A stretch of DNA of 64,000 bases, from contig CM057061.1 of assembly GCA_029945375.1 (NCBI GenBank), positions 310,001 through 374,000 of the forward strand, read 5' to 3'. This document shows positions 7,014 through 34,440 of the stretch, piece by piece. The DNA comes from Agaricus subrufescens. Taxonomy: Eukaryota; Basidiomycota; Agaricomycetes; Agaricales; Agaricaceae. A program made the translations under genes and the position numbers. The number at the start of each line of letters is the position of its first letter. Within the stretch, counting starts at the first letter, position 1. Below the pieces are notes generated by a model. The model did no database searches. It worked only from the letters and a program-made list of their open reading frames with translations, and was not told where the DNA came from.

Positions 7014-7180
7014 GAGTATTTCCAAGTTGTGTATTCAAGAACGTAGAAGGAGAAGGATACGCGTATCAAGTATGGAGGTTATAACAGAAGTAAATGGGAA
7101 GAAGGAAGAAGCACTATACGTACGTCAGTCTTTATATCTGTCTAATAATAGTGTGATGACGTTGTAAGCTGGGGCTTACA
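7014..7180 (-). repeat. RT1 3' LTR
   Basis: 167 bp, matching 27068-27234 with one visible substitution (G against A near 7120). Read on the minus strand it starts TGTAAGC, has a TATA-like ATATAAA at 7131-7137, and ends in ATACTC. The first 18 nt form an inverted repeat TGTAAGC-CCCA-GCTTACA. Base 7013 would add the canonical terminal A of a TG...CA LTR, but the other copy has C there. Confidence 0.9.
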
Positions 7181-7194
7181 CTCTTCCCCCCTTT
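7181..7194 (-). other. RT1 polypurine tract
   Basis: On the minus strand the bases directly before the 3' LTR read AAAGGGGGGAAGAG, a classic plus-strand primer. It fixes the LTR edge at TGTAAGC. Confidence 0.85.
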
Positions 7195-7202
7195 AAAAAA
7201 TT

Positions 7203-10973: not shown

Positions 10974-11006
10974 GTAGGAAGAGATGTCTGTTTGTATCAG
11001 GGAAGG

Positions 11007-11884
11007 TCATGTGAGATTTGCAGGTTTGTTATGAATGAAAGAGGATTCATTAGGGGAATGGTGTATGGGGAGGCTCCTGGAGGGCAGGACGGGCATAATG
11101 AAGGATTCTTCAAGCGAGTCAGATCCCGCCGCATACAGGGCAGCTGCAACGGCGATATTGCTATCACCTGAACTATCCTGCTGTATGGCATTGGTCTGTT
11201 TGACCCGTTTGGAAGAACCAGAGCCATCTTGACCGCCATGAGGGCGCTTGCCGCCGGAAGATGACGTAGAAGTATGATTGGAAGAGTTTGTGTTGTTGTT
11301 TTTGTAGGACGAGGAAGATGATCTGTTTGTTGGGTTGCCATTACGATCCTTCAGCAGTCGGTAAGCAACGGGTCGATAACCGTCTCCGGAAGGAGCATCG
11401 CTCCTGCACTGAGCAATAGAGTGTCCCGCATTCACCTGCCGGCACTTGTTACATCCTCCGTTTTCTTCCAGAATACGTCGCTCTTCCGGAAGTAACTTTG
11501 GTGGGGCCGGGTTAGGTCCATCCTCAGTGAAACAAGAATGTGCAAATGCTGAGACGGGCTCCGACTCTTCTACAGGGCGGGTAGGGAAGTATGGTGAACG
11601 CCAGTGATGTTTAGAACTGGAGGTAGAAGTGTTATTGGAAGTATTATTGGAAGGGTTACCGCGAGAAGCGTAGTCGTTCCTCCCTTGGTTCCCAGTCGAA
11701 GCTTTCATAAACGAATGCCAATGCTTGTTCTCTAGCGTATGAGAGTCGTCGAGTTTATTCATCTCAACCTGCCACTTCTCTATAGTGTCATAAACAGAGG
11801 TGTCGTACAGCCCTTTAGCTATAGCCGTATTATAAAGATGTTCGCGGACATTTGCCCCGATGACAGTGATGAACTGTTTGTCGG
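11007..11884 (-). CDS. RT1 Gag, C-terminal part (downstream of the RT2 insertion)
   Basis: The minus-strand frame enters at the RT2 junction with DKQFITVIGANVREHL, continues through an Asn/Ser/Thr-rich region, and holds a zinc knuckle of form C-x2-C-x6-H-x4-C (CNKCRQVNAGHSIAQC). It stops at TGA 11007-11009. It is in register with the upstream Gag part at 26197-26734 once one copy of the TCGG duplication is removed. The stop is in the same frame as Pol, with 11 open codons before the Pol ATG. Either readthrough makes Gag-Pol or the TGA is a lesion. Confidence 0.8.
11881..11884. repeat. RT2 target-site duplication, left copy (TCGG)
   Basis: TCGG lies directly before the RT2 5' LTR and again directly after the 3' LTR at 26193-26196. 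Removing one copy rejoins the RT1 gag frame exactly (Ser-Asp-Lys across the junction), so it marks the integration staggered cut. Confidence 0.88.
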
Positions 11885-12483
11885 TGATACGGCCCGCGCC
11901 GTTTTACGCGTAGAAATGTACTAGCTAGTATTTACAAGGGTATAACACCCACTAGCCAAGGTGCAGGGTCAGAACCTAACCATCTCTCGACACCTCAATA
12001 GTATCTCTCGTAGTCTGATAAATCCGCCTTGACTCTTATACGGGAAAACTGTACCGTGTAAGGCAAATATAGTCACTAGCTACCAGGAATGATCCGAGTA
12101 GAGGCATTAGATCTGGTGGTGACAACTAATTAGGCCGAAATACGACGATGACGCTCTAACTACCTAGACGAAACGTCGATTTATGCTTAGCGAAACTACA
12201 GATCACTCCTCCCGAGATATACTATTCGAAGCAGTTGACCCGCAGAAGACATCGGCTCGGACAGGGAACGGCTATCACGCAAACTAGCGAGCTGAAATCC
12301 CATCAGATTATCGTGGACCCACTAGCTAGCCGGACATATCACCGATTAGGATTCTCATCACATATCGATAACGAATCTGAACGGATAGAACGTTCAGCCA
12401 AGCGGCCTTCGGCATTCTGAAACCTGACAACGTACCCATGTGGATGCCAGGGGTAGCACAATGGGGACTAGCTACCATTGTTA

Positions 12484-12563
12484 GTTGGAAGGGGTAAGGT
12501 GCTAAGCGACGTCAGGCAGCACCTGCTCCAACCATGATGATTGGTGCGGATAGGATCTATCCG
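12484..12563 (+). other. Hairpin cluster in RT2 LTR U3
   Basis: Two nested perfect stems, GTTGGA (12484)/TCCAAC (12527) and GGTGCT (12498)/AGCACC (12518), are followed by CGGATAG-GAT-CTATCCG (12547-12563). They lie about 75-155 bp before the TATA box and are conserved in the 3' LTR. They may be factor-binding palindromes or RNA structures near the 3' end of the transcript; this is inference. Confidence 0.55.
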
Positions 12564-12639
12564 TACCCTCAGCCCAGTCCATATGATACCCTTAGTAATA
12601 GTAGAACTACTTTGTTAATATTTGTACGCATAATGTGAA

Positions 12640-12647
12640 TATAAAAA
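12640..12647 (+). promoter_or_regulatory. TATA box in RT2 5' LTR
   Basis: TATAAAAA in the context GTGAATATAAAAACCC. It is the best promoter element in the LTR and would start transcripts near 12670, leaving about 560 nt of R-U5. The same sequence is at 25597-25604 in the 3' LTR. Confidence 0.65.
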
Positions 12648-13237
12648 CCCTCTAGCTAGCGTCAAGAAAGGCAAGCAATCTCCTGCCCACGTCTAGCTTT
12701 GAGGATCGTGATTTGTAAAGTAGCGATCTAATAAGTGAATAACAACTAGCTTGCGAGAGAGCTTCTAGAAAAACTCAGACTAGTTCAGCAGTTCACGTCG
12801 GAGACGCTACCCGTTCAGAGAATTCACTAAGTTGCCAGTGATACGATAGTTTAAGAGACTAGCTAGGCTACCATCGCACGCTTATATCCAGCAGAGGTGT
12901 AAGTCGGTGCTAGTTTGAGTTGTAATTGCGGAGTCGGTGGATAACTGGCGAGTTAGATCATCGCAGCTCCTCATTAAACGTCATTGGTGCGACTTAGTTT
13001 GGCTACAACGCAGTAGCTAGAGTTCAAAGTTCACGTAGCCCTTCGGCCCGTTCGTAGCTAGAACAAGTTTGAGGATTCTTTTATTTGGAATTCCTTCTTT
13101 ATTAACTTTAACTTCGAAATAACCTTTTCTCTTGAATATCTCCCCACGAACTTGCATTTACGAGTACTAGTTAGTGAAGTGTGGTGTGTTTATTAAACTA
13201 GCTACACCCTTAACGTTTCATTTACTACCTCTACATC

Positions 13238-13254
13238 TGGAGCCCACCGCGAGG
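13238..13254 (+). other. RT2 primer-binding-site candidate
   Basis: TGGAGCCCACCGCGAGG begins two bases after the LTR end, with the TGG expected opposite a tRNA CCA tail. I cannot name the tRNA without a search. Confidence 0.6.
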
Positions 13255-13319
13255 GGAGTTTCAGTGTAAAGGTTTTATTCGATATTTCATATCCTTTTAC
13301 TTCTACTTCTTCAAGGCAC

Positions 13320-15296
13320 TTGCCTGAGCAACAGAAAAACCAACCTCAGCACTCTAGGAAGCCAAGCTTCATAGAGTTAAACAATACCAGCCCAACTCTG
13401 TCGCGTTTCAATCCAAGAGCGAGACAGACTAACAATTCTCAGTCAAACGAACTAGTTCCTAGACTAGACGATCCTGATCAGATCTTATTCCAAAAGCGTA
13501 AAGCTAGGAAACAAAAAGCTCGCGAAACTAGCGAAAGCCAAACGAGCGCCCAATCAGAAGAACTAGCTAGCGGATCTAGGTCGGTCAGATTTAGGGAACC
13601 GGTTATCTCTTCACCCACAGACACAGAACCGAATCCATTTTATCAACCAGCAGTGTTCGACGAAAGTTCATCACAGTTGGATATACCAGGGCAGTTTAAA
13701 TCCGCAGACAACACAGTCTATCACTCTCTGCCTAATTCGCCCGTGTCCCCTTTACCTAATACAGCGCAAACTAGTTTACCAAACAGCCGAGCTAGTAGCC
13801 CTACTCTTAATCAAAGAGTACCCGCACCATCAGCATCATCAAACTCGAACTCAGCACAAAACATGCCTTCACCACATATGCCAGCACCTTTTTCCCAAGG
13901 CGCACCCAAATGGGACGGCGAAATAGACAAGCTAGGAGACTTCATCTGGCATCTAGAACGTCAGTTCGAAGTATCTAGTATTACCGATGACGCTGAAAAA
14001 CTTAAATGGATGGTTAGTTATGTCAGCAAAAGCGTCAGGGACGAATGGATCAGTTTTGAAGAATACACCAATCAGAATTGGTCAAACTTCCTAAAACGAT
14101 TAAAAGAGGAATACCCTGAACTAGTGACCGAAGAAAAAGGGTCAGTGGCCAAGTTAAAGGCAATTTGTAGAAAGTTCAGACAGATAGGAATAACCGATCA
14201 GGAGGACTTCTCTAGTTTCCGTCGGCAGTTCCAGTCGCAAGCAAATAAGTGCCAAGCGCCACCTTCGATTATCTCCAACAGGGAGCTAGTAGAAGAATTC
14301 GTGAATACTCTAAGTCCAGCTTTCAGGGATGCACTTGTGGCCAGACTAAGTCTACAAGGAACCCGTCAAGCATTACAAGGACAAGGAAGATCCGAGGATC
14401 CTTATACAATTTCAGAAGTAATCAGAAAAGCGGTCGAACTAGTTAACGGGAACAGCCTGACAGGAGTATATGCGATAGACGCAGCCCGAGAACGGAACCC
14501 TCGATCACACACTTCTAATATCAAAAAGGAAACTAGCAGTTCGTCCTCCTCTGTGCAAATGGAAATTGATGCTATGCAACAAGATATTAGCCAGATAAAA
14601 GATTCCATAGTGATTGGACGAAAAGAGATGCAAGAATCGTTAGTAACGAGCCAGAAGAGCATGCAAGCTTATGTAGACTCGTTAAGTTCCAATATAACAG
14701 CCAGTATCGCTAAGCTTGGAACAACTAACTCGCATCAGCAGAACCGTAATCCGTCACAAAATCAGACCAGCTACCAAGGCAATTCGAACGCAAATTCGAA
14801 TTGTTTCTATTGTAATGAAACAGGGCATCGATGGATAGTCTGTCCTTATAAAACTCAGGACGAGAAGGACGGAAAAATAGTACAGGATGGGTCGAAGCTA
14901 AGGTTCGCAGATGGCTCCGGAATACCCAGAGAACCAGGAGTACCGATTAGAAAAAGTGTTGAAAAATACTTGCCCGCTTCCATGGCAGCTCTTATCTTTG
15001 GAGCGCCTGAGCTACCCCAAGGAGAAGACGAACCAGATACCGGGTATTCAGTAACTAGTTCGAGTACCTCCAGGCCTATCCCACTTGTAGCTATCCAGAA
15101 AAGAGAGGATGTACAAAAAGCCAATGCACAGGCTTTGGAAATGGAGCGTATGAGAGGTCGTCTAGCAACAATGGAAACATTTGTACAAAACCTGATGCCA
15201 CAAGCCAGACCGGAAACGGCTGAGGAAGATGAGCTCATACAGCAAATGATGAAATTGTTTACTCAGAGGACCGCCGCCAAGAAGGCGGATTTTTGA
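13320..15296 (+). CDS. RT2 Gag (no AUG start)
   Basis: The frame is open from 13197, inside the LTR and across the primer site, to TGA 15294-15296, with no ATG before 13863. The stated start is only a TTG with coding-like sequence after it, so the true initiation site is unknown. The N-terminal 180 residues are Ser/Pro/Asn-rich. A retrotransposon Gag capsid region follows (PKWDGEIDKLGDFIWHLERQ, then KLKWMVSYVSKSVRDEW). The nucleocapsid zinc knuckle is CFYCNETGHRWIVC, exact C-x2-C-x4-H-x4-C. The end overlaps the next frame by a slippery GGATTTT. Translation must begin at a non-AUG codon, by a spliced leader, or by another route. Confidence 0.85.
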   Translation: MPEQQKNQPQHSRKPSFIELNNTSPTLSRFNPRARQTNNSQSNELVPRLDDPDQILFQKRKARKQKARETSESQTSAQSEELASGSRSVRFREPVISSPTDTEPNPFYQPAVFDESSSQLDIPGQFKSADNTVYHSLPNSPVSPLPNTAQTSLPNSRASSPTLNQRVPAPSASSNSNSAQNMPSPHMPAPFSQGAPKWDGEIDKLGDFIWHLERQFEVSSITDDAEKLKWMVSYVSKSVRDEWISFEEYTNQNWSNFLKRLKEEYPELVTEEKGSVAKLKAICRKFRQIGITDQEDFSSFRRQFQSQANKCQAPPSIISNRELVEEFVNTLSPAFRDALVARLSLQGTRQALQGQGRSEDPYTISEVIRKAVELVNGNSLTGVYAIDAARERNPRSHTSNIKKETSSSSSSVQMEIDAMQQDISQIKDSIVIGRKEMQESLVTSQKSMQAYVDSLSSNITASIAKLGTTNSHQQNRNPSQNQTSYQGNSNANSNCFYCNETGHRWIVCPYKTQDEKDGKIVQDGSKLRFADGSGIPREPGVPIRKSVEKYLPASMAALIFGAPELPQGEDEPDTGYSVTSSSTSRPIPLVAIQKREDVQKANAQALEMERMRGRLATMETFVQNLMPQARPETAEEDELIQQMMKLFTQRTAAKKADF

Positions 15297-15346
15297 AAAG
15301 TCCAATGAAGAAGTCGACTTCTGGAAAAGAGGTTCGCTTCCAGAAG
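15287..15346 (+). promoter_or_regulatory. Gag-Pro -1 ribosomal frameshift signal
   Basis: In gag phase the sequence reads G-GAT-TTT-TGA. A -1 slip on GGATTTT (15287-15293) places the ribosome on TTG AAA AGT, the open pro frame, before the gag stop is read. GGAUUUU is a known natural slippery heptamer. Downstream is a perfect 9 bp stem, CTTCTGGAA (15318-15326)/TTCCAGAAG (15338-15346), though the 24 nt spacer is longer than usual. Confidence 0.75.
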
Positions 15347-16366
15347 GATCAGACGACCGAGGACGATACAGAGAAAAGAAATAGAACTACAGACAACAGA
15401 GGAGTGTTCCCTTATAGAAGAGTGCCGGCTATGAAACCAGTAGTGGAGGTACCACCTTTACCAGCCAGATACATGAATGAGACCAGAAAGCCTCCTAGTT
15501 ATAAACATCAGACTCAAGTAGAGGAAAATGTCGATATTAAAGAGGTTTTGACGCGTCTATTCGGCAAGGAGGTTACCTTAACACAGCAGGAGTTACTAGC
15601 TATGGCACCTAAACTCAGAGAAATGTGGAAAGAAGTGATCAGTAAGAGAAGAGTCCCTACAGGAAACAACACCCTAGAAGTGGAAACAGAGTTAAGATCA
15701 GAAACGGGACTAAACAGTACTTCCTCGCAGGAGAATGGTTGGGATGTAGTAGATACCGCTTCGCTGGAAATCCCTAAACGCACTAGCGAGTTAGCTAGAA
15801 ACGCGGCGGGGATATACGTGCAAAATTGGCGTATCGAAGATCCGATCATGCAATATTTGTCTACGTTGAATTCCAACGAACGACAAAAACAGATCTTCGC
15901 GGTAGCTAGCACAGAAGCAGTAGCCGCCAAAGGTATGGAGCATCTCAGAGTAATCCCAGCCTTAGTAAATCGTGTTTGTGAAGAAGAAGCGTTACTAGAT
16001 AGTGGATCACAAATCGTGTCCATGTCTAAACAAGCTGCCAGCGAATGCAAGATAACTTGGGACCCCAAGCTCAGTATTAATATGATGGGTGCTAATGGTG
16101 CTGTATCGCGAACAGAAGGAGTAGCTAGAAATGTGCCCTTCACCTTCGGAAACATCACAGTCCATTTGCAAGTTCATATTCTGGAAGGTGCAGCATACAG
16201 ATTACTATTGGGCAGACCTTTTGATGTAATAACCGAGAGCAAGATAGTAAACTCACAGGAGGGTCTTCAGTATATAAACATCACAGATCCGAATACTAAA
16301 GAGCAGGCTACCTTGTCAACATACGCGAGAGGACAATTACCCAAATCAGTAGATGTAAATTTTTAA
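15293..16366 (+). CDS. RT2 Pro: retropepsin-like aspartic protease, separate frame
   Basis: 357 codons counted from the shift codon TTG; the first ATG is at 15305, but entry from gag by -1 frameshift fits better. The first 200 residues are basic, hydrophilic and of unknown role. The protease motif is EEEALLDSGSQIVSMSK near residue 240, with Asp-Ser-Gly as the catalytic triplet, then a GRPFD turn and a hydrophobic LLLGRPF segment typical of retropepsin folds. A protease in its own frame, between gag and pol, resembles the betaretrovirus/deltaretrovirus layout more than the usual Ty3 layout. It ends at TAA 16364-16366, overlapping pol through AAATTTT. Confidence 0.82.
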   Translation: MKSPMKKSTSGKEVRFQKDQTTEDDTEKRNRTTDNRGVFPYRRVPAMKPVVEVPPLPARYMNETRKPPSYKHQTQVEENVDIKEVLTRLFGKEVTLTQQELLAMAPKLREMWKEVISKRRVPTGNNTLEVETELRSETGLNSTSSQENGWDVVDTASLEIPKRTSELARNAAGIYVQNWRIEDPIMQYLSTLNSNERQKQIFAVASTEAVAAKGMEHLRVIPALVNRVCEEEALLDSGSQIVSMSKQAASECKITWDPKLSINMMGANGAVSRTEGVARNVPFTFGNITVHLQVHILEGAAYRLLLGRPFDVITESKIVNSQEGLQYINITDPNTKEQATLSTYARGQLPKSVDVNF

Positions 16367-16399
16367 GTAGCTTCGAGGAATTCGAGCCCTGGCTTGAAG
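16357..16399 (+). promoter_or_regulatory. Pro-Pol -1 ribosomal frameshift signal
   Basis: In pro phase the sequence reads A-AAT-TTT-TAA. A -1 slip on AAATTTT (16357-16363) gives TTA AGT AGC, the open pol frame. Seven bases later a stem can form between CTTCGAG (16371-16377) and CTTGAAG (16393-16399), 7 bp with one G-U pair and a 15 nt loop. That spacing is typical of -1 signals. Confidence 0.78.
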
Positions 16400-19300
16400 G
16401 AGAAGCGGCCTGCATCATCAGTCAAGACTCCGACACTAGTCAGCCATATATCAGTGAGGTCTTGCCGATTCAATCCAACAAGCTAGACGATGAAGAAGTA
16501 AAACTAGTATATTTACAGAAGAGCTTGGAAGAAGTAGACCTTCCTGAGAAGGCAATTTTCAGTCAGTACCTGCAAAACGTCACCACAGACTACCAACCAT
16601 ACCATAAAGTAGTCGCAGTCGAAGAAGATAAACAGTGGAAACCAACCATGGTGCTAGCTAAGAAATATAAACCCGTGGCGCTAAAAGTAAAACCAGTCCT
16701 GGGAGAGCTACCAGCGAAATTCCGCATAGAGCGAGATATAACTGGGGATCCGTTAGAAGGAATGCCCAAGTTAATGGTAAACCCACCCGAGTTTGAAGCC
16801 AAGGGGCGCTATACTCAGGAAAGAAAGGACAAACTAGATACCGCACACGGCGGAGATTTCTTATGGCCTGAAGAACGAAAGTTAATGCACTGGCTGATCG
16901 CCCAGCAGAATGAGTGTTTTGCCTGGGAAGACAGTGAACGAGGTAGCTTCAAGGAAAAGTACTTTCCAGCAGTAGAAATACCCACAGTGGCACATACCCC
17001 ATGGGTAGAAAAGCAGTTTAGGATACCCCCAGCCATATACGAGGAAGTCTGTCGTATAATAAAGCGCAAAATAGATACAGGAGTCTATGAACCATCAAAC
17101 TCGTCGTACAGGTCTAAATGGTTTTGTGTCTTAAAGAAAGATGGAAAAAGTCTCCGTCTGGTACACAGTTTAGAACCGTTAAACCGGGTTACGATCGCAC
17201 ATTCAGGGCTTCCTCCAGCTACTGAGGAACTAGCTATGCACTTTGCAGGGAGAGCCTGTACAGGAGTACTTGATCTGTGGGTCGGGTACGATAACCGTAA
17301 ACTAGCTAGTTCATCCAGAGATCTCACTACGTTTCAGTCACCCTTCGGAGCCCTCAGGCTAGTAACTTTGCCGATGGGATGGACAAATTCGGTTCCTATT
17401 TTTCATGAGGACGTGACCTTTATACTCAGAGAAGAGATCCCTCAGTATACGTTGCCCTATATAGATGACGTGCCTATTCGAGGACCCGCTACCAGATACG
17501 AACTAGATGGGTCTACTACTAGCTACGAGGTTTTAAAAGAAAACCATGGCATCAGACGATTCGTATACGAGCATCTACAGACAGTTAATAGGATCCTACA
17601 ACGAATGAAATATTCAGGAGGGACCTTCTCCGGTCCCAAGACTACGATATGTGCAGATTATATCACGATCGTAGGATTTGAGTGCTCATATAAAGGTAGG
17701 AAACCTTCTAGGGATGCCATAGGGAAAATACTCCGTTGGGGGGAATGTACCGACACTACAGATGTCAGAGCATTCTTAGGGACGGCAGTACAATGCCGAA
17801 ATCACATTCCTAACTTTGTGACCTTGGCAGCACCTTTATATAATATCTGTAAGAAGGGTGTACCGTTTATATGGGGGCCAGAGCAGGAACTAGCACAGCA
17901 AAGACTAAAAGACAGCATAGCTAGTTGCTTTCATACCCGAAATCCTAAATTTCCAAGTACTCAGCCGATAGTGTTAGCCGTTGACTCCTCTTGGCGCGCG
18001 GTGGGATACTACATCTATCAAAGGGATGAGGAAAATCCGAAGATTATCCATTATGTGAAATTCAACTCTATCTTGATGGATGAAAGGCAGCAGAGGTATT
18101 CACAACCTAAGAGAGAGTTGTGTGGACTTAGAATGGCGCTAGAAGAAGAAGTTTATTTGCTCAGAGGAAGCAGAAATCTCATCGTCGAGACGGACGCCAA
18201 ATATCTACATGGAATATTAAACAATCCGGGCAAGTTACCTAATGCAACAGTTAACAGATGGGCGGATTATATCCGAACTAATTTCCAATTAGTTTTACTC
18301 CATAAGAAAGGAAAGACTTTTGGACCCGATGGGTTATCTAGACGCAAATGGTATCCGGGAGATCCCATAGAACGGCGATTCGACGATGTGTCAGAAGATG
18401 ACCAAGGAGACTTCGAACTAGTAAAGGAAAACCCGGATGATGAGGATCCCTTGCCTTTAGAGGACTTCATTGAGGAAATTGATGACAGAACAGGCTTCAT
18501 ACAGCAGATAATGAACGAAGATAGTCTGCTACAGTTAACAATAGCAGAAGCTAACCAGGTTTTACAATCAGAAATACAGCAGAGACGACAAATGGCTAAG
18601 TCCGCAGACTGTCCGGATCCGTTGAGGATATTTCTGAATAACGTAGCAGACATGGAGGAACAAGCTACGTATCAAGAACCTGAAGGGCCGACAGTAGATG
18701 ACGATTCAGACGAAATTAATGCGGAGGAAGATCCTTATGATCAAGATAGGCGTACTTCCGAAGCAAGGATGCAGGACAGACAATTAACTCGAATAAAAGA
18801 ATGGCTAGCTAGTAACCCTAGTAATGTCAATACATCGAAAATGTCCCCAGAACAAGCGAGGTTCATCAGGGCAGCCTCACATTTCTGGATAGACGATCAA
18901 GGACGGCTATTTAGGAAGATATCAGGAACCGGGAACCCACAGCTAGTTGTGGAAATCGATCAGCGCATGTACATTATGAAACAGTGTCATGACAAGTTAG
19001 GACATCGAGGGGTGTACGCAACCAACAAGCTAGTATCGCAGAGATTCTGGTGGCCAGAGATGGAAGGCGACGTAGCCTGGTACGTCAAGTCCTGCCACCT
19101 GTGTCAAGCTAGACAGAAGATGGCAATGGAACTACCGCCAGTAGTAACCCATACACCATCGATATTTCAGATTCTGCATGCCGATACGGTACATATCTCT
19201 ACAGCCTCCAACGGTTGTAAACATATAGTGCATGGGAGGTGTGCGCTCTCATCATGGATGGAAGCCAGAGCATTACGAAAAGAAGATGCCAAGTCTATTG

Positions 19301-20172
19301 GGGCTTGGCTCTTCGAAGACATAATATGCCGATGGGGTAGCTTAGTCAAAATTGTCACAGATAACGGTGCCCCATTTAGGAAAGCAGTCCGATGGCTAGA
19401 GGAGAAATATGGGATTAAAGGAGTAGCTATCTCCCCATATAACTCACAAGCTAATGGGACAATTGAGAGACCGCATTGGGATCTGCGGCAGATGCTTTAC
19501 AAGGCTACCGGAGGAGATCTGAAACGATGGTTCTGGGTATTACACCACGTAACCTGGGCCGACCGGATAACAGTCAGAAAAGGCACAGGTTGCTCACCAT
19601 ATTTCATGATAACTGGGGCCCAACCAACCATCCCGCTGGATATAGAAGAAGCAACATGGCTAGTTAGCTACCCTAATAAGATGATATCCACGGCAGAATT
19701 GCTAGGGCTACGGGCGCAAGCGCTAGCTAAGCACATCTCGCATGTAGAAGAAATGCGACAGAGAATTAGTGAAGAAAAACTTCGACGGGCCTTGCAGCTG
19801 GAAGAAGATATGAAACATAAAATAAAAGATTTCAATCTAGGACCAGGAGATTTGGCTCTAGTAAGAAATTCGGCTATAGAAATGTCAGCAGACAGGAAAA
19901 TGAAAACTAGATACTTAGGTCCAGTGGTTATCGTCAAAAGGCTTAAAGGAGGAGCATACCTTGTGGCAGAATATGACGGCTCAGTATGGCAGAATAAGGT
20001 GGCAGCCTACAGGATAGTGCCCTATCTAGCTAGGCGAAAAATCGTATTCAGCGATAAAGTTCGCGGCCTCTTGGACGCTACTGAGGAAGAACTGGAGTTG
20101 TTAGAGAAGCAAGAGCTCGAGAGATCTTTAGATGAGGAAAAAGACGTCGAACTAGTAGTCTCAACCACTTAA
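16363..20172 (+). CDS. RT2 Pol: RT, RNase H, integrase
   Basis: The frame is open from the shift codon at 16363 and has no natural ATG at its head, fitting expression only as a fusion. Reverse transcriptase: LVHSLEPLN, TTFQSPFGALRLVTLPMGW, active site PYIDDVPI. RNase H: LAVDSSWRAVGYYIY and a GPDGLSRR end motif. Integrase zinc finger: HDKLGHRGVYATN...CHLCQAR; core: LHADTVHI, VTDNGAPF and NGTIERPHWD as D, D, E. The C-terminus (LGPGDLALVRNS) is a simple integrase tail without chromodomain. An acidic linker of about 150 residues lies between RNase H and integrase. The RT type, with PFGALRL and YIDDVP, is familiar from agaricomycete gypsy elements. All catalytic residues are present. Confidence 0.92.
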   Translation, partial: LSSFEEFEPWLEGEAACIISQDSDTSQPYISEVLPIQSNKLDDEEVKLVYLQKSLEEVDLPEKAIFSQYLQNVTTDYQPYHKVVAVEEDKQWKPTMVLAKKYKPVALKVKPVLGELPAKFRIERDITGDPLEGMPKLMVNPPEFEAKGRYTQERKDKLDTAHGGDFLWPEERKLMHWLIAQQNECFAWEDSERGSFKEKYFPAVEIPTVAHTPWVEKQFRIPPAIYEEVCRIIKRKIDTGVYEPSNSSYRSKWFCVLKKDGKSLRLVHSLEPLNRVTIAHSGLPPATEELAMHFAGRACTGVLDLWVGYDNRKLASSSRDLTTFQSPFGALRLVTLPMGWTNSVPIFHEDVTFILREEIPQYTLPYIDDVPIRGPATRYELDGSTTSYEVLKENHGIRRFVYEHLQTVNRILQRMKYSGGTFSGPKTTICADYITIVGFECSYKGRKPSRDAIGKILRWGECTDTTDVRAFLGTAVQCRNHIPNFVTLAAPLYNICKKGVPFIWGPEQELAQQRLKDSIASCFHTRNPKFPSTQPIVLAVDSSWRAVGYYIYQRDEENPKIIHYVKFNSILMDERQQRYSQPKRELCGLRMALEEEVYLLRGSRNLIVETDAKYLHGILNNPGKLPNATVNRWADYIRTNFQLVLLHKKGKTFGPDGLSRRKWYPGDPIERRFDDVSEDDQGDFELVKENPDDEDPLPLEDFIEEIDDRTGFIQQIMNEDSLLQLTIAEANQVLQSEIQQRRQMAKSADCPDPLRIFLNNVADMEEQATYQEPEGPTVDDDSDEINAEEDPYDQDRRTSEARMQDRQLTRIKEWLASNPSNVNTSKMSPEQARFIRAASHFWIDDQGRLFRKISGTGNPQLVVEIDQRMYIMKQCHDKLGHRGVYATNKLVSQRFWWPEMEGDVAWYVKSCHLCQARQKMAMELPPVVTHTPSIFQILHADTVHISTASNGCKHIVHGRCALSSWMEARALRKEDAKSIGAWLFEDIICRWGSLVKIVTDNGAPFRKAVRWLEEKYGIKGVAISPYNSQANGTIERPHWDLRQMLYKATGGDLKRWFWVLHHVTWADRITVRKGTGCSPYFMITGAQPTIPLDIEEATWLVSYPNKMISTAELLGLRAQALAKHISHVEEMRQRISEEKLRRALQLEEDMKHKIKDFNLGPGDLALVRNSAIEMSADRKMKTRYLGPVVIVKRLKGGAYLVAEYDGSVWQNKVAAYRIVPYLARRKIVFSDKVRGLLDATEEELELLEKQELERSLDEEKDVELVVSTT

Positions 20173-20297
20173 CAAAAAGCTAGATTGCGAAACAAACACT
20201 AGCTAGGACACGATCTTCAACGGAAAGGACAGGACGGTCTCAGAAGTACAGAACTACTACAGTAACCTTGAAAAGGGACAGGGGCTAGGCTAGCTAG

Positions 20298-21632
20298 TTA
20301 GGTGCCCTTGTTAAGCATACCCGTCAAAGTATCTTGTTGTTGTGCGAGGAACTCGTAACGGCGTACAGAAACTTCCAAGTCCTGAGCAGCCGAAACTAAT
20401 TGGCCATTAGTGACCAAGTATCTAGCCTCCAAGTTGTGCTTGGATGAGGTCTTGAGGGCGGCATGGTCGACCTCGAGGGCGGAAGCTGCAAGTCCTTGTA
20501 CAACACTAAGAAGGCCTTTGCCTAATAGATATGCATCAGTACAGATCATAAACTAGCTAGTAGCAGATACCGCACCAGAATGTAACGGGGCAGTTATGGA
20601 TGCCGCAGTACCCATACCAGTAAGGAGCTGTACAGCGCGTTTGTAAGTCCAGCTACTAGTATCCAAGCCGGGCACAGTGGCATAAGGAATACGCACCGTC
20701 TGGGGACGAATAGGAGATGGCCCCTGAAACGACCAGATAGAGAGGACTAATCAGGAATGGGTGCGATATCAGAAGTAGTTAGTTGCACGCACCGCAGCAG
20801 AACAAGAGTTGCTTCGAGTTCTGGCGGAAGAGGCTTCACTACCTGGGGCAGTGGGGACGAGAGAAGGAATAGACCCATCATCGTCGATCTCCATGGCCTA
20901 GGGGCGATATTAACCACTAGTTAAGAAACAAGAAGAAGATCAGCTTACGTTAGATGTAGCAGGAAGCTTAGGAGCATTATGAGGAGGGACGACAACGACC
21001 TCCTCTTCGCTACCGCTATCGCTACTCTCGACAGTGGCAGAGGACTTAATAGTCTTAGCATAACGACGCTGAATCCTCATCAGCACCTAATAGAGCAAGT
21101 AGCTAGAGGTTTACCTTTTTAGAAGGAGGGACGTTAGACGCCTCAGACCCAGCCGAGGAACCTTTAGTGCTGATATTGGATACAGGGGTGGCGTTGCCGG
21201 ACGAGGGACCCTTGGTACGAGTCTTCTGTTCCAGGATCTCAACTAGCCTGGAGTATACAGTGGGATACTTGTAATCCTTTTCGAAATTGTCCTGCCAGTG
21301 GTCGAAACAGCGTTTAGTACGGCCCAGCAATTTGAATATCTCGGGCTTGTCAACGGCTGCGGGATCGGACTTGAGCTGCTGTAGCAAGGCAGTCTGTATG
21401 GCATCGTTAGATAAAACTAAAATAGGACAAGCTAGCCACAACGCACAGCAGAATCAGGCACCAGGGACAAGGCATTGCCTACAGAACCTCGAGTGGTTTG
21501 TTTCGACTCGTAGCGATTGACGCGATGGTGATAATTAGTGACATTATCTTCCAACTCGGTCTTAGCTAGTTGCGTATCGGGACGTAAACCGCCAGAAGGG
21601 CCAGTAGGGGCATTGGAAGGGGTCGAAGACAT
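20298..21632 (-). CDS. RT2 antisense accessory gene B, unknown function
   Basis: Not recognised. A six-exon minus-strand gene: complement(20298..20521, 20576..20723, 20793..20897, 20949..21068, 21115..21393, 21447..21632). The total is 1,062 nt, exactly 354 codons, through five short GT-AG introns (46-69 nt; GTGCG, GTAA donors). The start (MSSTPSNAPTGPSGG) is 62 nt downstream of a TATA box. Visible features: a charged helical segment (GRTKRCFDHWQDNFEKDYKY) near residue 90, a Ser/Thr/Gly-rich linker, an acidic SDSGSEEEV patch, and a C-terminal helical part with heptad-like spacing (LVSAAQDLEVSVRRYEFLAQQ). No enzyme motif, signal peptide or membrane span. Stop 20298-20300 lies 125 bp after the pol stop, tail to tail. 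The 3' acceptor of the fourth intron is the least certain. Confidence 0.7.
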
Positions 21633-21693
21633 GTAGGGCGAATCGAGGGTAGGGTAGGCGGTTCGATGTCTGAAAATAAACCGAGGAGGGCCT

Positions 21694-21701
21694 CTTTTAT
21701 A
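21694..21701 (-). promoter_or_regulatory. TATA box of antisense gene B
   Basis: On the minus strand the sequence reads GGCTATAAAAGAGG, a near-perfect TATA box, 62 nt before the ATG at 21632. Confidence 0.65.
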
Positions 21702-22439
21702 GCCGCCTCGACCAGCAAAATCAGATACGAAGCGAACTCGACCCATGGCATCCTGCTAGCTAGTGAGCGATAATAAAGCATGGGTAGGGGGACTTGTTCA
21801 CTTCTCGGGTACCTACCGACCACATGCTCCAGAGCACGTAACTTGGTAGTTCGGAAAAATGTAAGCGGCATTCGCTTAGACCTGCACACTTGTAAAGGAC
21901 GTGCTAGCTGGTGTCACAAGGGCAACTTATGCACTAAGTGTTCGACGAGGGCGTCTTAAACATATAGTGGGGGGGAGGGGTAAAAGAGAACCTCCGTAGG
22001 TTTTTTCAGGCCAGGCCGTAAGCAGCAAGGGAATATACAAGACCTTTACCTCGCAAAAAGACAGAAAAGCAACCAGCCTAATGCTGGGAAGAGATCGGCT
22101 TCCGATCTACTCTAAAAAGAGGAGCGATCGGATTACAGATAGCCCAATTTCAAATAACAGAGCGAAATCTCAAAGGTGTGACGCGATGAAATAATTGCCA
22201 CCAGAAGGAGATAAGTTGTAGTTACGGATCAAGAATCCGATTAGGGCACCAGCTAGCTGTTTGCGGAAACACAAGCTAGGAACGGAACAACAGAAATTTG
22301 AATTCAGTACTTTAACTACGACAGAGATGGGAGTGGATACCCGAGTTAAGTACAGATTCAAAACAAGACAACAGCAAGATAAGACAGAAAAATAAAATGA
22401 AACCGTGGCAGAAATGGAGACCCCACCAGCAGACGACGA
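21702..22439. other. Spacer between antisense genes B and A
   Basis: No coding frame holds up here. It contains a G-run near 21967-21978 and a perfect hairpin AGATCGG-CTT-CCGATCT at 22092-22108. It should include the 3' end of gene A and the upstream promoter of gene B. CTAG motifs continue. Confidence 0.5.
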
Positions 22440-24226
22440 TCAAACGGCAGACTCGTCCACCACAGCCTTGCCTTTGCCTTTGGACGGCGAGGAGCGAGAA
22501 GAGGAGGTAATGGGGACGACGGCCTCAGCGGCCACCTCCTCTTCAGAAGCATCTTCATCGGCGGCCTCCTCTCCAGCAAGTTCGTCATTGACAGAATCTT
22601 CAGAAGCCTCAGTTGGCTGGCGAAAGTGCATCTCCTGAGCCATCGTATTACGAGTTGAAAAACTAGCATGAAGGGGGGGCCTCTCCGGGAGGTTACTCCA
22701 GTAATGACCGCCACGGTGCAAGTCGTCGGTCTCATGAATAAAGTTCATCATGTCGCCGTAAGCCTGATAGAGACGAAGAGCGGCTTCATGAGAAGCTTCG
22801 GGGGCGCCAGGGGACGGAAAGAATTGTTCACAAATCTCGAAAAGCGTATCGAGTTGCGAACGATCCTTGACGAGATGGGCGTTGACGAAATAATCGGGAT
22901 CGTGGGCATGCACTGCTCGAGCTTGCAAAATCTCCGCGGCGTGACAGGCACAATCAGACAGAAGACGAGCTTGGGACAATGACAGAAGCTTCTGTTGCAT
23001 CGTCAATTGAGTGTAACCAACGCTAAGATTGCGCGCGGCAACACGAAGAGCTAGAAAAGAAGTAAAACCGACAAAATCAGTACAGAAAAAGACCAAAGAG
23101 AAAAGACGTACAGGACTCGCTAGAGAGACCATGAGAACGGAGGGCCTCGGCCAAGAATTGGACCACAGGCGCAGGCTTATTGTGGGAGCAATGGGAACGG
23201 CCTTTAGCGCGACAAGTTAAACATGCAGCACCAGCTATAGCAGCGCTGAGTTCGTCACGCACGTCCGCCGTCGCTGCCCGAGTCTCACCAGAAAGAGTAT
23301 CGTAAGAATGATCACAGATGTTGAAATTCAACAAACAAGAGATACAACCGCCATCCGGGACCGCACGAGAGCAGATATCAGAAGCCATAGTGAAGAGGCT
23401 AGCCGTATGATCAAGGATGGGGGTGCCAGCAACAATACCATAGTCCCGTACTAAGTCGTCGCTACGACGTAAGCCTGTAAAAGAGCAGATCAGCGAAACT
23501 AGTTTAAAAAGAAACGGAAGTCTTCAAAACATACCACTGCCACGAACCGGGGGGGGGTGTTTCTTATCGAATTTGGCCTTCTCAGTGATAGTAAGCAAGG
23601 CGCCTTTGCGACGCTCGATAGGGTCCGCCTTCGGAGCTTTCGTTTTGGCAGGGAGGGTTGTTTTGGACGTGGAAGCGGGAGGAGTAGCTTTGATTTTGGA
23701 AGCGGCAGCAGACTGACGCGCAGAGGTGCGAGGAGCTTTAGCGGAAACCACCTCAGGCGAAACAGAACGAGGGCGCTTCTGGCCGCGGGCTGGGCGCTCA
23801 GCAGAATCGTTAGCCAATTCGTCAACGCTTCCTTCGGCAGTTTCATCGGCGGAATCCTCGCTAGACACCGAACAATCAATAGCATCCCTAGTTAGTATCA
23901 TCCTAAGGATCGACTCACGGATCAGAAGCAACGGGGTCCTCTACCTCAACAACGGGAAGAGGGTCCGGTTCAGCGGCTTGCAACTTCGCCAGTTTCTCGG
24001 CGAGGGCAGTCTCCTCAGCGCGAGCTTGTGCGAGTACGCGAGCAGCAGTCTTTGCAGTCAAAGAGGCCTTCAAAGCCACAAGCGCCGCCGACGGAGGGGC
24101 AGATGTAGTAGCAGAAGAAGCGGCGACCTTTTCCTGTTTGATATGGGGCCGAGACTTAGATTTGGGAGCAGTTTGAGGCTTCGAGGCGACAGTAGACTTG
24201 CGAGGCTTGGGTTTAGCAGCAGGCAT
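22440..24226 (-). CDS. RT2 antisense accessory gene A, double CCCH-motif protein
   Basis: Not recognised. Four exons: complement(22440..23050, 23112..23474, 23535..23860, 23919..24226), introns 58-61 nt with clear branch sites, total 1,608 nt, exactly 536 codons. The N-terminal 100 residues are Ala/Pro/Lys-rich and basic; the next 100 are acidic then basic (RGQKRPRSVSPE, nuclear-signal-like). From residue 246 a cysteine region has two matching motifs: C255-x2-C258-x6-C265-x-H267 and C296-x2-C299-x7-C307-x-H309, likely two metal sites. A helical, His/Cys-containing region follows (SQARLLSDCACHAAEILQARA) to about residue 440, then an acidic Glu/Ala/Ser tail ending in a basic patch. The layout suggests a nuclear or nucleic-acid-binding protein; that is inference. 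It has its own TATA box. Confidence 0.75.
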
Positions 24227-24280
24227 CGTAGAAGCAGGAGGCAAGAAACAAAGGACACGCTACCAAGCCAAGGAAACGTT

Positions 24281-24287
24281 TATATAA
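24281..24287 (-). promoter_or_regulatory. TATA box of antisense gene A
   Basis: On the minus strand the context is GCCTTATATAAACG, 55 nt before the ATG at 24226. This and the matching box of gene B argue for internal antisense promoters inside RT2. Confidence 0.65.
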
Positions 24288-24667
24288 GGCGTTCCCGGCC
24301 GAGTTGGTAGTTGGCCGAGCCCGTAACCGCCGTACCTAATAAAGCAACGCCACCTACCTAATCCTATGCCATCGCAGGAACACGATTAAAATCGGACGAG
24401 ACAAAAAGCACGGACGAGCTGTTTTGTCCATCCATACCAGTTACAGCGATGTTTCTGTCTCTACACAAGTGAGCTAGACAGTAAAAAGACAGAAGAATCA
24501 GTAGCTATCGAGGAACGGAGGATAAGGTATAAAAATAGAAGCGGAGATAGCGAGTCCGATCAAGCGATGGAGGATCCGCCAACCCGGGAACTAACTAGTT
24601 AACCCCGAGGTCCGAGATCTAAAAATATTCGCCACGTGTACCCAATATTCCGCACCCCGTAGTTAAA

Positions 24668-24844
24668 ATGACAGGCAGACCGCTAGTTCCTAAAACATCA
24701 GCAACACGTGTGGCTAAAAGCACCCGAGGGATTCGCGTAGGCACAAGTCAGTATACCAGAAGCATGGCAACAGCCCCGATAAACTCAGAAATATCCAGCA
24801 GTTCGATGACTGGGGACAGTCAGCTTATAGTGAGGGGGAGATGA
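24668..24844 (+). CDS. Small ORF ending in the RT2 3' LTR
   Basis: 58 codons from ATG 24668; the stop TGA is the first triplet of the LTR. The product is basic and Ser/Thr/Arg-rich (MTGRPLVPKTSATRVAKSTR). The frame runs through the polypurine tract, which limits how much selection it can show. It could be the remnant of a longer sense-strand gene, a spliced reading frame, or chance. Confidence 0.25.
   Translation: MTGRPLVPKTSATRVAKSTRGIRVGTSQYTRSMATAPINSEISSSSMTGDSQLIVRGR
24830..24841 (+). other. RT2 polypurine tract
   Basis: GTGAGGGGGAGA lies directly before the 3' LTR start TGATACGG and is the expected plus-strand primer. Confidence 0.8.
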
Positions 24845-26192
24845 TACGGCCCGCGCCGTTTTACGCGTAGAAATGTACTAGCTAGTATTTACAAGGGTAT
24901 AACACCCACTAGCCAAGGTGCAGGGTCAGAACCTAACCATCTCTCGACACCTCAATAGTATCTCTCGTAGTCTGATAAATCCGCCTTGACTCTTATACGG
25001 GAAAACTGTACCGTGTAAGGCAAATATAGTCACTAGCTACCAGGAATGATCCGAGTAGAGGCATTAGATCTGGTGGTGACAACTAATTAGGCCGAAATAC
25101 GACGATGACGCTCTAACTACCTAGACGAAACGTCGATTTATGCTTAGCGAAACTACAGATCACTCCTCCCGAGATATACTATTCGAAGCAGTTGACCCGC
25201 AGAAGACATCGGCTCGGACAGGGAACGGCTATCACGCAAACTAGCGAGCTGAAATCCCATCAGATTATCGTGGACCCACTAGCTAGCCGGACATATCACC
25301 GATTAGGATTCTCATCACATATCGATAACGAATCTGAACGGATAGAACGTTCAGCCAAGCGGCCTTCGGCATTCTGAAACCTGACAACGTACCCATGTGG
25401 ATGCCAGGGGTAGCACAATGGGGACTAGCTACCATTGTTAGTTGGAAGGGGTAAGGTGCTAAGCGACGTCAGGCAGCACCTGCTCCAACCATGATGATTG
25501 GTGCGGATAGGATCTATCCGTACCCTCAGCCCAGTCCATATGATACCCTTAGCAATAGTAGAACTACTTTGTTAATATTTGTACGCATAATGTGAATATA
25601 AAAACCCTCTAGCTAGCGTCAAGAAAGGCAAGCAATCTCCGGCCCACGTCTAGCTTTGAGGATCGTGATTTGTAAAGTAGCGATCTAATAAGTGAATAAC
25701 AACTAGCTTGCGAGAGAGCTTCTAGAAAAACTCAGACTAGTTCAGCAGTTCACGTCGGAGACGCTACCCGTTCAGAGAATTCACTAGGTTGACAGTGATA
25801 CGATAGTTTAAGAGACTAGCTAGGCTACCATCGCACGCTTATATCCAGCAGAGGTGTAAGTCGGTGCTAGTTTGAGTTGTAATTGCGGAGTCGGTGGATA
25901 ACTGGCGAGTTAGATCATCGCAGCTCCTCATTAAACGTCATTGGTGCGACTTAGTTTGGCTACAACGCAGTAGCTAGAGTTCAAAGTTCACGTAGCCCTT
26001 CGGCCCGTTCGTAGCTAGAACAAGTTTGAGGATTCTTTTATTTGGAATTCCTTCTTTATTAACTTTAACTTCGAAATAACCTTTTCTCTTGAACATCTCC
26101 CCACGAACTTGCATTTACGAGTACTAGTTAGTGAAGTGTGGTGTGTTTATTAAACTAGCTACACCCTTAACGTTTCATTTACTACCTCTACA
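24842..26192 (+). repeat. RT2 3' LTR
   Basis: 1,351 bp copy of 11885-13235. Differences seen by eye: T/C near 12592, T/G near 12682, A/G and C/A near 12829-12835, T/C near 13137. The copy is followed by the TCGG target duplication. Confidence 0.93.
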
Positions 26193-27067: not shown

Positions 27068-27234
27068 GAGTATTTCCAAGTTGTGTATTCAAGAACGTAG
27101 AAGGAGAAGGATACGCGTATCAAGTATGGAGGTTATAACAGAAGTAAATGGGAAGAAGGAAGAAGCACTATACATACGTCAGTCTTTATATCTGTCTAAT
27201 AATAGTGTGATGACGTTGTAAGCTGGGGCTTACA
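27068..27234 (-). repeat. RT1 5' LTR
   Basis: Direct copy of 7014-7180 with one substitution; TATA-like ATATAAA on the minus strand at 27185-27191. On the element side (27067 downward) there is no TGG-type primer site, so the priming mode is unclear. Confidence 0.9.
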
Positions 27235-32909: not shown

Positions 32910-34440
32910 TCAAGCGGTTTCGCTCAATTCATTTTCCAACACAGCGGGTTGAATAGCACGCTCATGGCGATCACTGCGGGGTTTAATCGAGCACCTGAAA
33001 AGTTTGAGGAATCTGCGTGGACATAAATTTGTCAAGCTATTGGGTAGCAGAGTCAAAGAAATAACGTGACGTACACGACGAGTGCGATACCGTTTTCGCC
33101 CACCGCCTTCCCGATGTCAAAGCAGTATATAACAAAAGCGATGGCGACTCAAACTGCAGAAAAAGGCACGTACTATAACGACCAGGGCAGATTAGTACGG
33201 CAACCGCCGAGTCCAAAGCAACTGTACGCCTCGGGTCTCTGGCAGTCTTGTCCATCTTTCCATCTTTGGTGAAGAAACGCTCACGTTTGAAGGCGAATGG
33301 ATCGGAATAGACCTCGCCATCGTAGAGTATGGCCCTGCTCGCTGATCAGTTTGCAAAATCACCTGAACTTCCCAAGCAGCCCTTACCAAGCACTCGGAAT
33401 TACAATAGACCCCCCTGGTCTTCTGTATCCTTTGTATTCGTCATCGACCAGTAAGTATCCCGGGACCGCAATCGGTGCGACGTCTCTCCGGCAAAGTATT
33501 TTCGTATGCCCCAGTAAACGAAGACAAAGCTTCACAAGAAAGAAAAACGTACAGCCTTATCCGAATCAGCTAGTGAGATTGATATGAGATTGGTTGGAGG
33601 CCGACGCAAGATAATTTACTACTCACCAGCATACATAGTTCCCGCACTACAGCACACGACATTTTCCTCACTTTTCCATCTTTGGTGAAGAGACGCTCAC
33701 GTTTGAAGGCGAATAGATAGGAATAGACCTCGCCATCGTAGAGTATGGCCCTGCTCGCTGATCAGTTTGCAAAATCACCTGAACTTCCCGAGCAGCCCTT
33801 ACCAAGCACTCGGAATTACAATAGACCCCCCTGGTCTTTTGTATCCTTCGTATTCGTCATCGACCAGTAAGTATCCCGGGACCGCAATCGGTGTGACATC
33901 TCTCCGGCAAAGTATTTTCGTATGCCCCAGTAAACGAAGACAAAGCTTCACAAGAAAGAAAAACGTACAGCCTTATCCGAATCAGCTAGTGAGATTGATA
34001 TGAAATTGGTTGGAGGCTGATACACGTTAATTTACTACTCACCAGCAAACATAGTTCTCGCACTACAGCAAACAACATTTTCCTGACTCTAAGCCTCATC
34101 ATTTTTTCTCAGACGCCCTCTGCATGCTGTACAGTGTAAACGATGGCTTGGCTTTTCCTTCCGCCTAACGAGTCCAATAAAGGAGTTCTGAAACCAACCA
34201 CTATCCCGAGAAACAAACTCACAATCAGTTCTTTCGCAGCTCCAAATGGCGCGTCTACCATCGCCAAGGCAAGTTTCTCCCATTCTCTCGCTTTCTTCTA
34301 CAATCCAACACCAGGCATCCACTCGGAGGACATACTTCCGAGTCAGAAGCGTAGATGTCGACACAAGGTTTCAAGGTGGATTATGGATGGATCCAGCTGC
34401 TCAGTCGTGGAGGATCTCGGAAGGAGTGGTTAGCTCTAAA
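32910..34440 (-). pseudogene. Cytochrome P450 pseudogene (CYP64/OrdA-like)
   Basis: Minus-strand fragments follow P450 order: EWMPGVGL-stop-KKAREWEKLALAMVDAPFG, with an in-frame TAG; QENVVCCSA(R/G)TM(F/Y)AG from the I-helix; VDDEYKGYRRPGGSIVIPSAW; ILYDGEVYSDPFAFKRERFF; a heme-loop region where FGLGGCR and ICPGRY lie in different frames; then VAIAFVIYCFDIGKAVGENG with a TGA just before, and the tail CSIKPRSDRHERAIQPA ending at 32910. So the gene has at least two stop codons and a broken heme loop, plus a 416 bp internal duplication. The ancestor was a microsomal monooxygenase. The N-terminal membrane anchor and first exons were not found. Confidence 0.8.
33257..34088. repeat. Tandem duplication of about 416 bp inside the P450 remnant
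   Basis: Copy 1 (33257-33672) and copy 2 (33673-34088) are nearly identical from TTCCATCTTTGGTGAAGA to the TTTTCCT end. Each includes the exon pair YKGYRRPGGSIVIPSAW / LYDGEVYSDPFAFKRERFF and part of the I-helix exon. The few differences indicate a recent duplication. Confidence 0.88.

Follow-up and report, generated by a model that had tools for sequence, protein, structure and literature searches.

The 64,000-nucleotide (nt) stretch of Agaricus subrufescens DNA analysed here (assembly GCA_029945375.1, contig CM057061.1, forward-strand positions 310,001 to 374,000; hereafter the window) carries RT2, a whole Ty3-type long terminal repeat (LTR) element on the plus strand at 11885-26192, delimited by LTR extension, a TCGG duplication and pol domains. 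After its pol frame, two genes, A and B, run on the minus strand, antisense to gag and pol. Gene A (22440-24226) has four exons (24226-23919, 23860-23535, 23474-23112 and 23050-22440) that encode 535 amino acids plus a stop, or 536 codons. Gene B (20298-21632) has six (21632-21447, 21393-21115, 21068-20949, 20897-20793, 20723-20576 and 20521-20298), encoding 353 amino acids plus a stop, or 354 codons, and the spacer between the two coding regions occupies 21633-22439. A TATA box stands upstream of each start codon: TATATAAA at 24279-24286 on the minus strand, beginning 60 nt before the ATG of gene A, and TATAAAAG at 21694-21701 on the same strand, beginning 69 nt before that of gene B. An earlier interpretation made from the letters alone, the sequence-only reading, had proposed two such genes with short GT-AG introns and TATA boxes; its exon and codon counts prove exact, all eight introns are GT-AG with lengths of 46-69 nt, and both boxes are present.

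The gene A introns, all on the minus strand, measure 58 nt (intron 1, 23861-23918, GTGAGT...GTCTAG, placed by a spliced open-reading-frame search), 60 nt (intron 2, 23475-23534) and 61 nt (intron 3, 23051-23111), the last two being in phase 1. This search, which was given the start codon and scored splice sites and branch points, ranked the gene A model first and recovered the five introns of gene B together with a spurious sixth. Alternative gene A introns (a 31-nt intron 1 and an 84-nt intron 2) had scored equally or higher in a crude scheme and were dropped once branch points were scored, leaving the introns of 58 and 60 nt.

Other copies of the element allow both genes to be followed over time. 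The 3.9-kb antisense region has 24 matches in the whole 44.65-Mb genome, and because 19 of these are 99-100% identical, RT2 is taken to have undergone a recent burst. All 24 matches fall within 23 RT2 loci (L001-L023), among which the reading frame is intact at 17 for gene A and at 20 for gene B. GT and AG are kept at all eight splice junctions in L001-L022 (22 of 22) and at five of five gene B junctions in L023, where gene A is absent. In three older copies, about 5-12% diverged from RT2, the ratio of nonsynonymous to synonymous substitution rates (dN/dS) for gene A is 0.29 in both L021 and L022 (529 and 534 of 535 codons compared; L023 does not cover this gene), and for gene B it is 0.22, 0.24 and 0.21 in L021, L022 and L023 (353, 338 and 316 of 353 codons). 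As controls, the remaining two frames of that strand give 0.92-1.30 for gene A and 0.80-1.72 for gene B. L021 and L023 have near-identical counts in gene B and are not independent, L021 looking like a mosaic; the slightly diverged L020 gives 0.28 and 0.33 from few changes, with erratic control frames (0.32-1.82). The sequence-only reading had looked to other copies for low dN/dS, and values of 0.2-0.3 in the proposed frames against 0.8-1.7 elsewhere bear out its description of an accessory module of two spliced antisense genes, here under purifying selection. A and B are thus real genes, beyond what chance would give, and selection acts on them at the protein level.

Some of these copies have features of their own. 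Relative to positions 20100-24400 of the window, L015-L019 are 14-25 nt longer and show a few further differences, so at least two RT2 sub-lineages have spread recently. L020 (G000:C12:1036948-1043040) is nearly identical but interrupted by about 50 small gaps, of which many fall in gene A and none in gene B; they reflect either assembly error or odd local decay. Compared with positions 20298-24830, L021 (G000:C21) differs at 1 of 806 sites in the spacer between A and B and at about 8% of sites in gene B, with the same gene B counts as L023; this mosaic suggests that old and young copies exchanged sequence, by template switching or by gene conversion.

The gene pair is not confined to RT2. Genome searches with A and B yielded weak extra matches in other elements, several of them about 2 kb apart, and in whole-genome protein searches (expectation value, E, up to 0.001) matches were confined to RT2 copies or related elements. 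The pol of these A/B-bearing elements is about 60-75% identical to that of RT2 over the aligning parts. Ten related loci were examined: C4, C5, C2, C37, C11, C2_3602 and C13_1126, selected for a match to A or B, and C13b, C14 and C2_3434, selected on pol alone; at least 14 further loci with a pol at least 57% identical to that of RT2 lie outside this sample. A-like and B-like stretches stand antisense after pol in all ten, including all three that were selected on pol alone. In a distant pol group (38-43% identity) represented by C33 and C6, no credible match to A or B was found in 5 and 4 kb, respectively, at and after the end of pol, the best having an E of 0.096. One locus of this distant group, L036 (G000:C33:3701-8700), has a 301-residue open frame, measured stop to stop, on the sense strand after pol. 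Arrays of direct repeats with units of about 125 and 155 bp lie in or near two related elements (L033, about 2150-3570, and L028, about 4855-5742).

Gene A of RT2, over its conserved part, is 21-22% identical to its counterparts in C13b and C4, and gene B is 28-29% identical, against 67% for RT2 pol with both; A and B thus change much faster than pol. Pairwise pol identities among RT2, C4 and C13b are 67, 67 and 74%, and C4 and C13b are also the closer pair in their A and B proteins (about 42-63% identity over the pieces aligned). In gene A, introns 2 and 3 are common to RT2, C4 and C13b in place and phase, as are introns 1 and 2 of gene B, some junctions having weak or alternative splice sites; gene B intron 3 is common to RT2 and C13b. 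TATA-like boxes also occur 67-94 nt upstream of gene B in C13b and C4. In junction tests, gene A passes at three of three junctions in both C4 and C13b, while gene B passes at four of five in C13b (not at RSNSLNA/DKYPQ) and at three of four in C4 (not at AFHFSKHM/MEVDSEANP), with some weak splice scores. An exact GT-AG path was found for gene A of C13b and not for gene A of C4 or gene B of either; likewise, automatic gene-model search returned a whole model for C13b A and none convincing for C4 A or for either gene B. The C13b and C4 proteins used in alignments A1 and A2 were joined by eye, and some joins are imprecise. Because introns are shared in place and phase across families, the splicing and pairing of A and B probably predate the split of these families. 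Such sharing also fits the earlier argument that introns in antisense genes survive retrotransposition since the genomic RNA is the other strand.

Outside this genome, gene A has at least one relative, P0001 of Agaricus bisporus (44% identity), which places it in a second genome. No relative of gene B appeared in the protein search, and viral contigs held no match to P0001 or to pol. Such blanks carry little weight, because a profile search with A1 returned zero matches and missed even P0001, which is a row of A1.

Pfam assigns no family to A or B, the best hits being single-member matches at E 0.03-0.35 that have no weight; the full-length RT2 proteins match no Pfam family at E 1, PF04195 gives no match in either at that threshold, and the TRP28 domain is absent from both in Pfam. 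Neither alignment A1 nor A2 matched a solved structure, and A2 matched nothing in PHROGs. Gene A has basic patches and two C-x2-C-x6/7-C-x-H motifs, from residues 255 and 296. This double motif, pointed out in the sequence-only reading, holds in RT2 and in the Agaricus relative, while across families only C-x2-C ... C-x2-C-x6-H-C is invariant. Zn2Cys6 regulators have six conserved cysteines in set spacing. A GAL4-type Zn2Cys6 domain was considered for gene A and rejected, as the four aligned sequences share five invariant cysteines, not six, and there is no Pfam match; the five form two C-x2-C pairs about 37 residues apart, with one more in the H-C pair. Gene B has a basic KKRRYAK patch and conserved PPxKK, R-x-RSNS and C-terminal segments, and its residues 176-182 (EEEVVVV), acidic and then valine-rich, presumably resemble a motif that interacts with the small ubiquitin-like modifier (SUMO). 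An AlphaFold model of the Agaricus relative, with 17 exon pieces, has a mean predicted local distance difference test (pLDDT) score of 57 and a predicted template modelling (pTM) score of 0.36; the confidently predicted parts are a long helix at the N terminus (22-82) and, towards the C terminus, a helical segment (353-460), and the cysteine region is not among them. No transmembrane segment was found in A or B, the highest 19-residue hydropathy being 1.14 and 1.11, respectively, and neither has a signal-like N terminus. These features would suit nuclear, possibly metal-binding proteins.

The second line of evidence concerns the DNA of the element itself. RT2 is strewn with the palindrome ACTAGCTAGT, which has 15 sites at up to one mismatch in the internal region plus one LTR, against 0.4 expected; an example lies in the 5' LTR at 11920-11929. 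With both LTRs and both strands counted, there are 53 copies of the related 7-mer CTAGCTA, where Markov shuffles have 2.4-3.1, and 28 of the 8-mer ACTAGCTA, where 0.6 are expected. With one LTR, CTAGCTA is found 40 times (3.09 per kb) and AGCTAG 58 times against 10.8 expected. CTAGCTA does not occur at all in the window from 27.3 to 64 kb, and all 16 occurrences of CTAGCTAG in the 64 kb lie inside RT2. The word is common in gag and pol, is present in the introns of gene B and shows no enrichment over gene A. It is densest in the LTRs, where one 1351-bp copy holds 22 CTAG against 5.2 expected; in both RT2 and C4 the words thin out most around gene A and upstream of it. The sites in pol are not accounted for by codon use, because the 11 CTAGCTA found there (mean 0.5 in shuffles) are reached by none of 500 synonymous-codon shuffles; gag has 3 against 0.4 (7 of 500 shuffles) and the protease frame 4 against 0.6 (2 of 500). 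Among 4-bp inverted repeats with spacers of 0-8, the top one in RT2 is CTAG-0-CTAG (within ACTA-2-TAGT), and an expectation-maximization motif search likewise returned a palindromic CTAG repeat for RT2, with no usable consensus for the other sequences.

Genome-wide, the pattern ACTAGCTAG has 621 matches on both strands, against 401 for a backwards control pattern. Of the first 100 of the 621, which all come from contig C1, five RT2 copies account for 85 (17 each), a cluster with LTR spacing for 3 and other places for 12. The 401 control matches suggest that the word is not special outside RT2. In old copies it survives at 56 of 70 sites in L022 (matched words, 1007 of 1515), 59 of 68 in L021 (1182 of 1409) and 26 of 34 in L023 (532 of 735), only slightly above the matched words and suggestive at most.

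Related elements have words of their own. In the sister family represented by C4 the word is AGTCGAGACT, and counts over the element with both LTRs are 80 against 12 for CTCGAC, 23 against 0.9 for AGTCTCGA and 40 against 3.7 for AGTCGAG. CTCGAC exceeds all 500 synonymous shuffles in each of three sense frames, and four other C4 words tested are reached by 0-13 of 500. C4 has no copy of the RT2 word CTAGCTAG. CTCGAC also ranks first among 6-mers in C5, C2, C37, C11, C13_1126, C14 and C2_3434. The third family, C13b, has a related and weaker set: CCTCGA (45 against 10.3), CTCGAG (25 against 5.4) and TCTAGAA (13 against 1.9). The top 4-bp inverted repeat of C4 (spacers 0-8) is AGTC-2-GACT, and in C13b none stands out. 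The presence in two families of a near-palindrome about 10 bp long fits a dimer on double-stranded DNA.

Controls set the scale for these counts. In shuffled sequences the top 6-mer has an average z score of 4.1-4.9 (maximum 5.8), and scores are 4.6-5.0 for RT1, the element into which RT2 is inserted, one of whose scores covers 7014-11884 only, 5.8 for 30 kb of host DNA, 4.9-6.0 for pieces of the window from 27.3 to 64 kb and 4.9 for 11 kb of C33. Neither RT1 nor this host DNA has a word comparable to that of RT2. Overlapping 5-kb pieces reach 7.8-12.0 in RT2, 7.1-14.2 in C4 and 5.6-8.9 in C13b. In codon-aligned pol, word sites overlap 5 times between RT2 and C4 (3.4 expected), 2 times between RT2 and C13b (2.3 expected) and 18 times between C4 and C13b (4.6 expected), and the words of the other family are at shuffle level in the RT2 frames. 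Amino-acid identity is somewhat lower under the words, at 43 of 70 against 807 of 1202 elsewhere for RT2 compared with C4, and 77 of 141 against 773 of 1131 for C4 compared with RT2. Word and A/B seem to change together, a pattern over three families and not a proof.

The old copies also bear traces of host silencing. Excess change of CpG to TpG or CpA is a mark of cytosine methylation. Such changes outnumber the reverse by 102 to 5 in L021, 245 to 11 in L022 and 81 to 2 in L023; most differences in these copies are transitions, and the CpG type makes up 245 of the 631 differences in L022. In the sister family the direction relative to C4 is mixed (C13_1126, 311 to 55; C37, 35 to 105), a result that decay of C4 itself would produce. 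The host thus probably methylates and silences these elements, and methylation of old copies would give an anti-silencing factor a target to act against.

The remaining parts of RT2 are those of a Ty3-type element. The LTRs, each 1351 bp with TG...CA ends, lie at 11885-13235 (5', dense in the CTAG word) and 24842-26192 (3'), with 5 mismatches between them, and the target-site duplication is the 4-bp TCGG. An open gag frame (13197-15296) is about 38-40% identical to gag of related elements, and the following frame (15233-16366; 47-49% identity), which we take to be protease from its position and its D-S-G triad, precedes pol (16300-20172), where Pfam recognises RT_RNaseH and Integrase_H2C2, in keeping with reverse transcriptase (RT), RNase H and integrase. 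RVT_1 has no match in RT2 pol at E 0.001 in Pfam, so that this pol, with matching RNase H and integrase models, represents a diverged Ty3-type lineage. A polypurine tract, its role assigned by analogy, lies at 24829-24841, just 5' of the 3' LTR. RT2 is inserted into the gag gene of RT1, a minus-strand element that spans about 7014-27234 and carries a chromodomain; pieces of the split RT1 gag flank RT2, and two 167-nt repeats (7014-7180 and 27068-27234), which are 99% alike, probably form the ends of RT1. Outside RT2, two 300-nt direct repeats (33257-33556 and 33673-33972) are 97% alike and 416 nt apart from start to start.

One interpretation brings together the genes, their age, the selection on them, their joint presence in related elements, the words specific to each family and the CpG decay: A, B or both may bind the word of their own family and counter silencing, like the plant protein VANC. 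In such a mechanism, each gene would be transcribed from a TATA promoter of its own, separately from gag-pol, into an mRNA that is spliced like that of a host gene. Protein A, protein B or both would enter the nucleus and recognise, probably as a dimer, a short palindrome-like word (ACTAGCTAGT in RT2, AGTCGAGACT in the sister family) that has accumulated along most of the length of the element. By coating their own copies, they would keep RT2 expressed, or bring it back to expression, against host cytosine methylation, an effect on silencing rather than plain control of transcription, and would leave other families and host genes alone. Among the roles that the sequence-only reading had listed for the module, that of regulator is favoured and receives a concrete form from the dispersed, family-specific DNA word; silencing suppressor is our best guess for what A and B might do. 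We give this reading a probability of roughly 0.47.

Several observations weigh against it. Pfam reveals no established DNA-binding domain in either protein, and in the AlphaFold model of the Agaricus relative the cysteine cluster is poorly predicted. The words stand inside coding sequence as well, and no tandem array was found in RT2 at score 40, in both respects unlike VANC targets. AGCTAG is mildly raised in C4 gag (4 against 1.0; 6 of 500 shuffles), and the C13b word is at shuffle level in the 3' 5 kb alone, with no palindrome outlier. In C4, AGTCGAGACT at up to one mismatch is biased 15 to 3 towards the sense strand, in the LTRs too, which would fit an RNA signal. C33 and C6 may have weak words: ATATCG scores 7.6 in the first 5 kb of C33 and 4.6 over 11 kb, and two runs on the 4 kb of C6 gave TAATAA 5.5 and 8.0. 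These two exceptions make an anti-silencing role slightly less likely. Three families and a small number of negatives are the basis for linking word and genes.

The main rival holds that A and B are nuclear regulators of another kind, such as activators or repressors of the LTR promoter, Rev- or HBZ-like factors or factors that import the integration complex; we consider it possible, if rather doubtful. The word would then be read by A or B for transcription, or by Gag, integrase or a host factor. The words are indeed densest in the LTRs (22 CTAG in the 1351 bp of RT2; 22-24 sites per kb in C4), the C4 word is strand-biased, and passages of PMC7264820 and PMC11963269 propose plant antisense genes as nuclear regulators. 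A promoter switch, however, needs no words through pol beyond the level of synonymous-codon shuffles, and word sites differ between the families, among the three, whose A and B differ most.

Alternatively, the antisense transcripts could act as RNA, pairing with genomic RNA, feeding RNA silencing and limiting copy number, with the proteins secondary. Antisense transcription does permit double-stranded RNA, an idea raised for plant elements in a passage of PMC7264820, but RNA alone needs neither purifying selection at the protein level nor conserved introns, which makes this improbable. The dispersed words might also be a by-product of composition or codon use, unrelated to A and B, given that the link is a correlation over three families with weak exceptions in short controls. 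This is very unlikely, as Markov and synonymous shuffles fall short in pol, the LTRs show words too, and the words of the other family stay at shuffle level in RT2 frames. A structural or envelope-like module, serving particles or cell-to-cell transfer, would suit the location between pol and the 3' LTR, where retroviral env lies. The envelope-replacing function that the sequence-only reading had listed is nevertheless hardly credible for proteins that are antisense, carry basic patches and lack both transmembrane-level hydropathy and signal-like N termini. Finally, A and B could be host genes captured not long ago, or a transposon nested in RT2 and of no use to it, as their host-like introns and TATA boxes might suggest; this has next to no likelihood when they stand at the same place in related families, have genome matches, at E up to 0.001, confined to RT2 copies and related elements and show dN/dS of 0.2-0.3.

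VANDALs are Mutator-type DNA transposons. In Arabidopsis, the transposable-element protein VANC binds to a 9-base word that recurs within its own family and causes methylation to be lost, and a sister family has a different word, protein and words changing together, according to passages of PMC5735166 (Hosaka 2017) and PMC10398659 (Sasaki 2023). RT2 resembles this system, as far as those passages describe it, in its repeated words over-represented in the own family, in family specificity, with different words in RT2 and C4 and a related variant of the C4 word in C13b, and in fast-changing proteins. It differs in being an LTR element, not a Mutator-type carrier, with two candidate proteins antisense to gag-pol, and in its words, which lie in non-coding tandem repeats in VANDALs, as described there, and in RT2 are found in coding sequence as well, without tandem arrays. 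VANC is the closest working model for RT2, with binding and demethylation as predictions here.

HBZ of human T-lymphotropic virus type 1 (HTLV-1) is an antisense basic leucine zipper (bZIP) protein made from the 3' LTR. The proposed A and B would resemble it as antisense retroelement regulators, and they differ in matching no Pfam family and in having their own internal TATA boxes. Antisense HTLV genes are mentioned in a passage of PMC11963269. Antisense genes of the plant elements Retand and Grande are alike in place, orientation, presence in most copies and suspected nuclear role (passages of PMC11963269 and PMC7264820), and the RT2 genes, with their TATA boxes, would share the own-promoter layout shown for the Grande gene in a part of PMC7264820. 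Unlike these, RT2 carries a pair of genes interrupted by 3 and 5 introns, the text of PMC11963269 not containing the word "intron"; unlike Retand, A and B lack the TRP28 domain, and the passages of PMC11963269 and PMC7264820 mention no family-specific word for Retand or Grande. In fungi, brtn of the Botrytis element Boty is an antisense extra gene in a Ty3 element (Zhao 2011, as cited in a passage of PMC8365987), a single gene judging by the title of that report, against two in RT2. At title and abstract level, the open-access literature yielded no description of a spliced antisense pair whose element is strewn with a word specific to its family. LTR elements with antisense genes are already known, and it is this combination that looks new.

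In its widest form, the proposal is that fungal LTR elements evolved self-recognition independently of plants, in which an antisense, intron-bearing gene pair would read a near-palindrome of about 10 bp, spread along most of the element and also within coding sequence, and exempt only its own family from methylation, while sister families rewrote both reader and word; we put this forward tentatively, as falling short of even odds. If it is true, sequence-specific anti-silencing would not be peculiar to one group of plant DNA transposons and would have been reached independently by retroelements of another kingdom. The role of antisense genes in LTR elements such as Retand, Grande and Boty would become testable, since the sequence of an element itself reveals which target word to expect, and families with such genes could be scanned for a word of their own. 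Such co-evolving pairs of protein and short word would also be useful for studying how DNA recognition changes.

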